This document shows positions 45,967-48,225 of a DNA stretch of 64,000 nucleotides, in pieces. Where the stretch lies: the NCBI RefSeq assembly GCF_024653915.1, contig NZ_JANLGY010000006.1, positions 1-64,000 on the forward strand. The letters are read 5' to 3'. A program made the position numbers and the translations under genes. Source of the stretch: Sulfuricaulis sp. Lineage in GTDB: Bacteria > Pseudomonadota > Gammaproteobacteria > Acidiferrobacterales > Sulfurifustaceae. Position 1 is the stretch's first letter; each line of letters starts with the position of its first letter. The notes beneath the pieces are model-generated. The model had not been told where the DNA came from. It ran no database searches and worked only from the letters and a program-made list of their open reading frames with translations.

Positions 45967-45976
45967 AAAGCACTGT

Positions 45977-46010
45977 GTCGGTGGATGGCGGGGATGAAAG
46001 AGTTATATGA
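45977..46010 (+). repeat. SDR 3'-end repeat, diverged copy 4
   Basis: The 34 bp read in frame as VDGGDERVI and a stop, matching the VDGGNERVI end of the aldolase/dehydrogenase. About two thirds of the bases agree with the last 34 bp of copy 1, mostly in the first half. It sits just after the nitrate reductase gene and before the second toxin-antitoxin module. The assignment rests on a short match and on the symmetric position. Confidence 0.55.
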
Positions 46011-46017
46011 GTTTTCA

Positions 46018-46043
46018 ACGCAAAGACGCAAAGGGCGCAAAGA
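46018..46043. repeat. CGCAAAG-type short repeat
   Basis: ACGCAAAGACGCAAAGGGCG followed by CAAAGA: three 8-9-nt units. It resembles one arm of the inverted repeat at 21081-21153, with A for C at the variable position. No second arm is seen nearby. Confidence 0.6.
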
Positions 46044-46165
46044 AAAACATTGGGTAGTTTATGTAGTGCAGATTAGCGCCGGTTTCAGGCGCGTAACCCG
46101 CCGGAAACCAAACGTGTTTTGGCGGTGTGTTATAGTTTGTACTTGGCCGAAAGCGAGAGTTCGAT

Positions 46166-46378
46166 ATGGCTGCCCCCAAAGACGTCATCGAAAAAGCTTT
46201 ATCCCTAAAGCCGCTTGAAAAAGCGGACTTGGTGGATCGGCTGCTGTCGAGCCTGGATCAGCCTGACGAAGCGATCACCGAGCTGTGGGCCAAGGAAGCA
46301 GAAAGCCGCCTCGATGCCTACGAAAAAGGAAAACTGAAAGCCGTTTCCCTCGAAAAAGTCTTGTCCAAATATAAATAA
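46166..46378 (+). CDS. Antitoxin of the putative addiction module component family
   Basis: A 70-aa protein with the family pattern VIEKALSLKPLEKADLVDRL, LLSSLDQPDEAITELWAKEA and ESRLDAYEKGKLKAVSLEKV, as in antitoxins paired with RelE/ParE-type toxins. Its stop TAA is immediately followed by the toxin start. Its toxin partner is interrupted, so the antitoxin may now be an orphan that still binds its own promoter or other toxins. Confidence 0.82.
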   Translation: MAAPKDVIEKALSLKPLEKADLVDRLLSSLDQPDEAITELWAKEAESRLDAYEKGKLKAVSLEKVLSKYK

Positions 46379-46672
46379 ATGAGAATTCGATTTCTCGAAA
46401 TAGCAGAAATCGAATTGGACGACGCCGTCAAGTTCTACAACCACGAATCGCCAGGATTAGGCGATGAATTCCTCACCGAATTAATGCACGCGCTGGATCG
46501 GATCGCCCGGTTTCCGGAGGCGTGGCATCCTTGCTCGAAAAGAACGCGGTGATGCCAGACCCGTCGCTTTCCTTACGGTGTCATTTATCGGCACAAGGAA
46601 GACGAAATACTGGTTGTTGCCATCGCCAATCTCCACCGCAAGCCGGATTATTGGCAGGACAGGTTGGCGTAA
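46379..46672 (+). pseudogene. RelE/ParE-family toxin gene with a premature stop
   Basis: A 97-codon reading frame is broken by TGA at 46550-46552 (codon 58). Before it reads MRIRFLEIAEIELDDAVKFY ... PEAWHPCSKRTR; after it, in the same frame, CQTRRFPYGVIYRHKEDEIL ... NLHRKPDYWQDRLA. The two halves together form a complete ParE/RelE-like toxin. The family usually has an arginine at the stop position, so a single CGA to TGA change explains it. The lost part includes the conserved RFPYGVIY and HRKPDYW motifs, so the toxin should be inactive. Confidence 0.85.
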
Positions 46673-46675
46673 AAC

Positions 46676-46743
46676 GCGGTCCGCTGTTCGCCAAGACTAC
46701 TGCCGCGCAGGCGCCGGTGGATGGGGGAATGAGCGGGTGATCT
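46676..46743 (+). repeat. SDR 3'-end repeat, copy 3
   Basis: A 68-bp fragment matching the last part of the aldolase/dehydrogenase gene (RGPLFAKTTAAQAPVDGG), with a one-base deletion near 46726 that shifts the frame. It starts three bases after the stop of the broken toxin. It is the right-hand counterpart of copy 2, which also follows a toxin gene. Confidence 0.88.
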
Positions 46744-46872
46744 GAGTCCTTTCAGTGCATCGGCTGCCAGATTTGGCTGTCTTGAAACTCCCCATCATGT
46801 CGTGTTTGTCTTTTTGTATTATTGCGCACTACAATGAACAAATATGAATGTTTTTAACCACTTACAACAGAC

Positions 46873-46892
46873 TACTGTAAATATATACAGTA
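46873..46892. promoter_or_regulatory. LexA (SOS) box
   Basis: TACTGTAAATATATACAGTA matches 19 of 20 bases of the E. coli LexA consensus TACTGTATATATATACAGTA, including both CTGT/ACAG half sites at the correct spacing. It overlaps a perfect TATAAT (46891-46896) reading towards the first cassette gene. It lies 43 bp upstream of the cassette boundary at 46935/46936. Confidence 0.85.
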
Positions 46893-46893
46893 T

Positions 46894-46917
46894 AATGTCG
46901 TTTTATAAAACGACATT
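46894..46917. promoter_or_regulatory. Perfect 24-bp palindrome next to the LexA box
   Basis: The arms AATGTCGTTTTA and TAAAACGACATT are exact reverse complements with no spacer. It begins two bases after the LexA box and spans the expected transcription start of the TATAAT at 46891. It could be an operator for a dimeric regulator or a 5' hairpin. The protein that binds it is unknown. Confidence 0.6.
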
Positions 46918-46935
46918 TAGGCCGTCTACTTCTAG

Positions 46936-47353
46936 TTAGGGTGCTGAGGAAATATGGTACCAAAACCTATAGTTGGTTTTCTTGTCAGTCCGTTGGCCGT
47001 TCCACTCGTAATCGCTCTGTATATGTTGTGGAACGGCAGTAATAATTTACCGTTGGCAAGTTTGCTGGTAACAGCTGCCTTTAGCTACTTTGTAATGTTG
47101 GTCGCTGGTCTTCCGATTCACTTCGCCCTAAAAGCAATTAAGTTTCAGGGGTGGTGGCTCTATACTCTTTGTGGCGCTCTCCTCGGAGGGTTTATCTCGT
47201 GGTATGTCGATATCGAGCTTTTCAGTCCAGGTTTTGCGTTGCTTCCCGTTGCAGCATCGCTGTCGGCTTTAGTTTGGTGGGTGCTGGCGTGTCCGCACCC
47301 TAACTCGGCGCTCCACCGGACGCGCAAAGACGGCGCGCCGGTGAGCTAGTTCG
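46936..47353 (+). mobile_element. Integron gene cassette 1
   Basis: The boundary G/TTAGGGTGC (G at 46935) is the exact reverse complement of GCACCCTAAC at 47295-47304, the inner end of the cassette's attC site. Pairing of the two cassette ends is the hallmark of an integron cassette that circularises by attC recombination. The 418-bp unit carries one gene in the forward direction and ends at the G of the next core site GTTGGGC (47353-47359). No integrase is in the window. Confidence 0.85.
46954..47349 (+). CDS. Cassette-encoded small membrane protein
   Basis: A 131-aa protein with four predicted hydrophobic helices (VGFLVSPLAVPLVIALYMLW, ASLLVTAAFSYFVMLVAG, WWLYTLCGALLGGFISWYV, FALLPVAASLSALVWWVLA) and a short polar tail. 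The tail NSALHRTRKDGAPVS is encoded by the attC site itself, as often in cassette genes. GAGGA lies 5 bp before the ATG. Composition is clearly lower in G+C than the chromosome. The family is unknown. The upstream LexA box makes DNA-damage control possible. Confidence 0.7.
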   Translation: MVPKPIVGFLVSPLAVPLVIALYMLWNGSNNLPLASLLVTAAFSYFVMLVAGLPIHFALKAIKFQGWWLYTLCGALLGGFISWYVDIELFSPGFALLPVAASLSALVWWVLACPHPNSALHRTRKDGAPVS

Positions 47354-47359
47354 TTGGGC
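47295..47359 (+). repeat. attC site of cassette 1
   Basis: The outer site is GCACCCTAAC (47295-47304) and the core is GTTGGGC (47353-47359, fits GTTRRRY). Inner arms CACCGG-A-CGCGC and GCGCGCCGGTG pair with one extrahelical base, around an AAAGACG loop region. Unpaired bases in an otherwise perfect stem are typical of attC. Length 65 bp, within the known range. Confidence 0.85.
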
Positions 47360-47780
47360 ATCAAAATCACCGAGCTTCGTAAGTGAGGAAATATGGAACT
47401 AAGACAATTTGTATCTCGGGCTCTTTGCGACATCGTGAACGGCATCAAGGATGCGCAACAAGAAACTGACAAAGGAACAATTGTTCCCAAAGTCGCCAGT
47501 AGTTTCAAAGCAGTTGAGACGGGTATCAGTGATCTGACAGCCATAGAGTTTGAGGTAACTGTAAAGACCGATGAGCGCGCTGGGAGTGAAGCCAAGTTGA
47601 GTGTCGTAGCCGCCATTGTTGGTGGCAGCGTGAAAGGCGAAAGCGGTAACAGCAGTGGACATGCAGCAAAGTTGTCTTTCAGAGTTCCGGTCAAACTTCC
47701 GCGGGCTGAATAGCTATCGTGATGCCCAACCCGTCGTTCAAGCGGGACTGCGCAAAAGCGCGCAGCCCCTTAACTTTACG
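47354..47780 (+). mobile_element. Integron gene cassette 2
   Basis: It starts TTGGGCATC after the crossover G at 47353; GTTGGGCATC is the exact reverse complement of GATGCCCAAC at 47721-47730. The 427-bp unit has one forward gene (47393-47713) and ends at the degenerate core GTTACGG (47780-47786). Beyond it the chromosome resumes with a minus-strand Nudix gene. Confidence 0.85.
47393..47713 (+). CDS. Cassette-encoded hypothetical, Trypco2-like
   Basis: A 106-aa soluble protein. It has an N-terminal helix (MELRQFVSRALCDIVNGIKD) and then strands (TAIEFEVTVKTDERAGSEAK, LSVVAAIVGGSVKGESGNSS, AKLSFRVPVKLPRA). The pattern resembles the small trypsin-co-occurring (Trypco2-like) domains known from bacterial conflict and signalling loci, but the match is from memory of the pattern only. 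GTGAGGAAAT precedes the ATG, much as in cassette 1. The stop lies seven bases before its attC site. Confidence 0.65.
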   Translation: MELRQFVSRALCDIVNGIKDAQQETDKGTIVPKVASSFKAVETGISDLTAIEFEVTVKTDERAGSEAKLSVVAAIVGGSVKGESGNSSGHAAKLSFRVPVKLPRAE

Positions 47781-47787
47781 TTACGGC
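47721..47787 (+). repeat. attC site of cassette 2
   Basis: GATGCCCAAC begins the site. The inner stem GGG-A-CTGCGC / GCGCAG-CCC encloses the loop AAAA plus two bases, again with an extrahelical A. The 3' core is degenerate (GTTACGG instead of GTTRRRY), suggesting this end is no longer a good recombination site. Confidence 0.82.
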
Positions 47788-48200
47788 TAAATTATTTTCC
47801 CGGCCCAATCCAATACCGCCAGCACCCGCGGCACCAGCAATCCAAAGGCGGCGTCGTATTCCATCCAGCGGAATTCCTCGTGTTCCGGTTTGCCGAGTTC
47901 TTCGGTGACGGGGAGAAACACTTCACCTTCGGCTGATTCCGCAACGTAGTAACGCGCAATCTTGTTTTTGCCGTAAGGCTCGGTTTCCGTGAACGCATGT
48001 CCCCAACGGAAATCGAGCTGGATCAGCGTGGTTTCCTCTTCCACTTCGCGGATGGCGGCGGCCAGCGGGTCTTCGCCGGGCTCGACCATACCCTTGGAAA
48101 AATCCCAATAATCACGGATGCGCAATAGCAGGTAACGATATTGATCGTCGAAGTGTCGGACGATCACGACACCGGCAGAGAGTGTTGGTTTGATGTTCAT
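47787..48200 (-). CDS. Nudix hydrolase, Ap4A hydrolase-like
   Basis: A 137-aa enzyme with the complete Nudix box GMVEPGEDPLAAAIREVEEE followed by T (G-x5-E-x7-RE-U-x-EE). The surrounding sequence (SAGVVIVRHFDDQYRYLLLR, DYWDFSKGMVEPGE) is like asymmetric bis(5'-nucleosyl)-tetraphosphatases that clear Ap4A. It runs opposite to the cassettes and its stop abuts the last cassette core site. ATG 48200 is used; a GTG at 48215 would add five residues. No clear ribosome binding site. Confidence 0.83.
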   Translation of the reverse strand: MNIKPTLSAGVVIVRHFDDQYRYLLLRIRDYWDFSKGMVEPGEDPLAAAIREVEEETTLIQLDFRWGHAFTETEPYGKNKIARYYVAESAEGEVFLPVTEELGKPEHEEFRWMEYDAAFGLLVPRVLAVLDWAGKII

Positions 48201-48225
48201 TTGTACATAGAGCACATAGCAATTT

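Follow-up and report, generated by a model that had tools for sequence, protein, structure and literature searches.

The window, a 64 kb stretch of a Sulfuricaulis sp. genome (G000; 2.73 Mb in 31 contigs, 99.8% complete), contains two consecutive gene cassettes of integron type. Cassette spans were set with the cut between G and TT; position 46936, given as the start in a preliminary description of this DNA, is the first base 3' of that cut.

46936..47353, + strand: cassette 1 (418 bp; 10/10 end pairing, attC model)
46954..47349, + strand: ORF of cassette 1 (131 aa; small hydrophobic predicted membrane protein)
47295..47359, + strand: attC of cassette 1 (model match 47298-47359, 70.2 bits, E 1.8e-16)
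47354..47780, + strand: cassette 2 (427 bp; 10/10 end pairing, attC model)
47393..47713, + strand: ORF of cassette 2 (106 aa; weak likeness to trypsin-co-occurring domain 2)
47721..47786, + strand: attC of cassette 2, the last of the array (model match 47724-47787, 46.7 bits, E 4.3e-10)

The preliminary description had proposed that the two ends of each cassette pair exactly, that each cassette carries an attC-type stem and that each holds one forward gene, and we found all of this to be so. At 10/10 positions, GTTAGGGTGC (46935-46944) at the start of cassette 1 is complementary to GCACCCTAAC (47295-47304) at its end, and so is GTTGGGCATC (47353-47362) at the start of cassette 2 to GATGCCCAAC (47721-47730) at its end; end pairs crossed between the cassettes matched at 6/10 positions only. 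Because each cassette end adjoins the start of the next cassette in the chromosome, pairing of a cassette end with its own start is the signature of an excised circle.

The pattern RYYYAAC...GTTRRRY was unselective as an attC finder, the reversed control giving more matches, and we therefore turned to a covariance model whose 11 input attC sites all came from sister species and none from the window. A covariance search, to which the preliminary description had looked for confirmation, recovered both sites, and the next best match in the 64 kb window scored 16.1 bits. Stem covariation in the model was strong (23 double-changed cells vs 7.8 in shuffles, 0/500), and the bottom strands of the two sites fold with z = -3.25 and -3.02. 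Over 48 bp, the attC of cassette 1 shares 92% identity with one of the attC sites in the intI-bearing array of a congener, G001. The right half of the last attC, GTTACGG, is chromosomal, and this core departs from GTTRRRY. An Rfam search of the region gave no match to an attC family.

Each cassette contains one forward ORF, and a common leader, TGAGGAAATATGG, lies 5' of both. The stop codon of the first ORF falls within its attC, an arrangement that is frequent among cassettes. The protein of cassette 1 matched TauE at 18.9 bits, under the cut-off. That of cassette 2 matched PF19631 at 20.3 bits (E 6.6e-4), under the cut-off of 24.2, and had no relatives among 56 other genomes of the order. 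We rejected a defence role for the cassette genes, neither of which gave a useful match in NCBIfam or PADLOC. Carriage by a plasmid was likewise discarded, as the array, the attI unit described below and the cassette proteins had no match in plasmids, and so was carriage by a phage, the attI unit having no match in phage records and the cassette 2 protein none in viral contigs.

Immediately 5' of cassette 1 lies a region of ~140 bp with the following features.

46795..46935, + strand: attI region (~140 bp, from ATGTCGTGTTTG to the cut between G and TT; congener search and alignment)
46873..46892, no strand assigned: LexA-type box TACTGTAAATATATACAGTA (19/20 to TACTGTATATATATACAGTA), overlapping the presumed leftward, gene-less intI promoter
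46880..46909, - strand: presumed Pint whose gene is missing (TTTATA-18-TATATT, reading left; from a consensus scan alone, 9/12)
46894..46917, no strand assigned: palindrome AATGTCGTTTTATAAAACGACATT (24 bp, perfect), belonging to the conserved attI unit
46918..46941, + strand: attI core, TTAGGCCGTCTACTTCTA followed by GTTAGGG, with the cut between 46935 and 46936

By homology, these ~140 bp are an attI. They share 90% identity over 70 bp with the stretch between intI and the first cassette in G001, and the last ~20 bp resemble the sequences next to three distinct intI genes found in the genus, with a clear likeness in G001 and G003 and a partial one in G006. After the palindrome, the sequence up to cassette 1 reads TTTAGGCCGTCTACTTCTA followed by GTTAGGG. 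In the scan for LexA-type boxes, the next best site in the window scored 13 and shuffles gave 13-14, and an intact box is also present beside intI in two congeners. The motif CTGTN8ACAG occurs once in the 64 kb window, at 46875-46890, within the box. At the LexA homologue of G000 (L178, G000:C27:30432), no CTG-N10-CAG box was found anywhere in the 3.2 kb locus, and SOS control is therefore unproven. A Pc-like match for the cassettes (46806-46835, TTGTCT-18-TACAAT) is weak, and the count of such matches is not clearly above chance. We also considered the palindrome as a selected hairpin and rejected this: the dyad is largely kept in all copies of the unit and its covariation does not go beyond shuffles, so the palindrome appears to be a DNA site.

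The attI region belongs to a unit of ~140-165 bp that has ATGTCGTGTTTG as its left edge and the cut as its right edge. A second unit is found in G000 at C5:41236; G001 has three, one of them beside intI; further copies occur in G002, G005, G006, G007 and G008, and one in another genus of the same family. Elsewhere among 57 genomes of the order, nothing matched the unit above 18.5 bits. A weaker attI-like match was noted at G000:C6:129196-129243 (21.8 bits). Across 10 copies, mean pairwise identity was 89% in the 60-bp core, 56% in the left part and 22% farther left, and the 60 bp before cassette 1 recur at 83-98% identity before other arrays and beside an intI. Nine of the 11 full-length units lacking intI have a correctly oriented attC within about 1 kb downstream. 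Left of the cut, all three G001 copies (L010, L015, L020) have CTACTTTTAG and most others CTACTTCTAG, the common variant hinting that copies may be homogenised inside one genome. The constant left edge raises a MITE-like origin of the unit, which is neither shown nor excluded; a clean empty site was not found for the unit, and G002 carries a repeat there.

A NUDIX gene (47787-48215) adjoins the array. Its locus carries the attI unit in G000, G006, G007 and G008 and a decayed unit in G005; the unit is absent from this locus in G002, and other genes are found in G001 and G003. We detected no DNA of the window cassettes at the NUDIX loci of congeners, and no counterpart of the two genes there in 7 congeners. 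The right junction is GTTATCTG at the NUDIX locus in G005, G006 and G008, and this is apparently the ancestral right side of the attI. The left junction aligns continuously between G000 and G007, with no gap big enough for intI; because of this continuity, and because intI is missing in both, the unit, without intI, was probably in place at this locus in their ancestor. Behind a hemolysin-III gene, G000 and G006 have a second attI locus in common, of which G005 retains a decayed version, and a third is common to G001, G008 and, in truncated form, G007. Three attI loci are thus conserved between species while differing in cassette content, and these differences at orthologous loci suggest that an attI without intI can accept cassettes.

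Several other elements lie left of the array. The interval 46166-46672 holds an Unstab_antitox gene (PF09720, 60 bits) and, after it, a ParE-like toxin frame with a stop near 46550, so that the toxin-antitoxin pair just 5' of the array is probably broken. A short-chain-dehydrogenase-like gene (family assigned by eye) has its 3' tail at 46676-46743, and seemingly only this tail is left in G000; in other congeners a gene of this kind neighbours the NUDIX gene. A dispersed repeat, TTTTCAACGCAAAGACGCAAAGGGCGCAAAGAAAAAC, at 45975-46048 is also present in G002, next to that genome's NUDIX gene and with no attI unit at the locus.

The preliminary description had portrayed the array as a cluster of attC sites lacking an integrase, or else as the remnant of a larger chromosomal integron, and had pointed to the rest of the genome for intI and related cassettes. 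The first part is borne out: no integron integrase scored above the family cut-off of 265 bits in the window or anywhere in G000. The best recombinase matches in G000 (80 and 68 bits) are full-length frames of 304-308 aa, which we infer to be XerC and XerD. The genome does hold many related attC sites, with 28 matches at E<=0.1 spread over many loci. Clusters of attC without a recognisable attI were seen on C13, C16, C20, C23, C30 and others, and could be attG-type insertions or arrays that have decayed. The notion of a remnant was right in part, in that an attI with an integrase-promoter signature heads the array; the relict of intI itself sits elsewhere. It comprises 37 codons at G000:C4:29820-29930, with 51-59% identity to the IntI of congeners, and 3' of it are an attI-like core, TGTCTATTTTTAGTTAGACC, and then an attC. 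A possible N-terminal scrap, QPPKQID, lies between the relict and this attI-like core and attC. We take the C4 relict to be what is left of the species' intI platform after decay. Among the congeners, 3/8 have IntI at 455-486 bits; some of their MAGs are incomplete, and lack of intI in these is weak evidence. Neither the attI region nor the several attI-headed arrays at conserved loci of the genus had appeared in the preliminary description.

Traffic of cassettes is visible in G001, a complete genome in a single contig. The first and second cassettes of its intI array (405 and 628 bp) recur in full, at 100% identity, as cassettes four and six of an attI-headed array that lacks intI, 1.54 Mb away, and the identity begins and ends at the GTT cores. 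Such identity, as far as sequence can tell, shows that cassettes have recently passed from one array to the other, presumably through IntI acting in trans; it demonstrates traffic between arrays and is not proof of an orphan attI as acceptor.

The array pairs two attC model matches and circle-like end pairing with the absence of an integron integrase nearby. Measured against a complete integron, the window locus lacks an intact intI, and an attI, as identified by homology, is present beside the first cassette. We reasoned that the array is very probably an attI-headed CALIN, whose cassettes were inserted by an IntI that worked in trans or has since been lost, and were then fixed. The cassettes would have entered singly, as circles, by recombination of the attC bottom strand with the window attI, and the IntI would have been encoded at another chromosomal position or, in the past, next to the site. 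Decay of the species' intI would then have fixed the array, with change possible only if IntI were reacquired; the window array is probably frozen now. In sister species that have an integrase, the attI loci without intI are probably live ports, and the comparison suggests that one integrase can serve many of them.

A different history is that the locus had intI until recently and that a deletion left the promoter, the LexA box and the attI, so that the unit never stood alone. We give this in situ loss a substantial minority chance. It would account for the intact LexA-type box of the window, where other copies lacking intI have one box half degenerate, and it fits the closeness of the whole window unit to the intI-adjacent copy of G001 (78% vs 60-67% for other copies), as well as a similarity between the DNA to the left of the unit and the first part of the G001 intI leader. 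However, the left junction shared with G007, where intI is also missing, leaves no room for a gene of that size, and the intI relict of G000 lies on another contig, C4. The cassettes might instead have landed at a random core-like genomic site with no true attI. Insertion at such attG sites has been described (PMC12901181, PMC12444791), and several other attC clusters of G000 have no recognisable attI; but the 60 bp upstream of cassette 1 are repeated, with the high identity given above, which is not expected of random targets, and we consider this origin very improbable. That the two genes are normal chromosomal genes whose inverted repeats arose by chance is scarcely credible, given the attC model matches, the 10/10 end pairing, the stem covariation and the finding that in none of 7 congeners does either gene have a counterpart next to the NUDIX gene.

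Beyond the attI-headed CALIN itself, the integrons of the genus may be multi-port, the attI unit having spread, been kept across species and been served in trans by one integrase. We put this forward tentatively and think it rather unlikely. If true, cassettes would be captured and expressed at many places on the chromosome, and the spread of the unit would mean that attI is copied by a mechanism not yet described.

The standard picture of an integron is one intI and one attI in cis. The attI loci of Sulfuricaulis make the filling of several ports by an integrase in trans directly testable, as is the question of whether attI-bearing CALINs are more than dead remnants, and the attI unit offers a means of separating attI-headed CALINs from random attG insertions. 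Like a sedentary chromosomal integron (e.g. that of G001), the window array has a LexA-type box, and its attC type and attI region are the same; it differs in having no intI and two cassettes only.

CALINs have two or more attC sites with cassettes, lack an intI in their vicinity and have been proposed to be degraded integrons (PMC9024848). The window array resembles them in its two attC cassettes and lack of a nearby intI, but retains an attI with an integrase-promoter signature, of a type that recurs at other conserved loci. In the Shewanella prophage M16-3, an integron and a CALIN are each headed by the same attI (PMC9892861), a likeness in that a second, intI-less but attI-headed array shares a replicon with a complete integron; M16-3 is a single prophage case, whereas Sulfuricaulis has several chromosomal loci that are orthologous across species. 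In Xanthomonas, CALINs occupy conserved loci away from the ilvD integron and loss of intI is widespread (PMC12444791). Arrays without integrase at positions conserved across species are common to both genera, but attI units heading the CALINs are not reported in the passages of that source consulted. In a literature search, with most subscription papers outside it, we found no account of a genus in which several attI ports are conserved on the chromosome. Overall, precedents exist for attI-headed CALINs and for conserved CALIN loci, and the conserved multi-port organisation in one genus appears, as far as that search reached, to be a new form.
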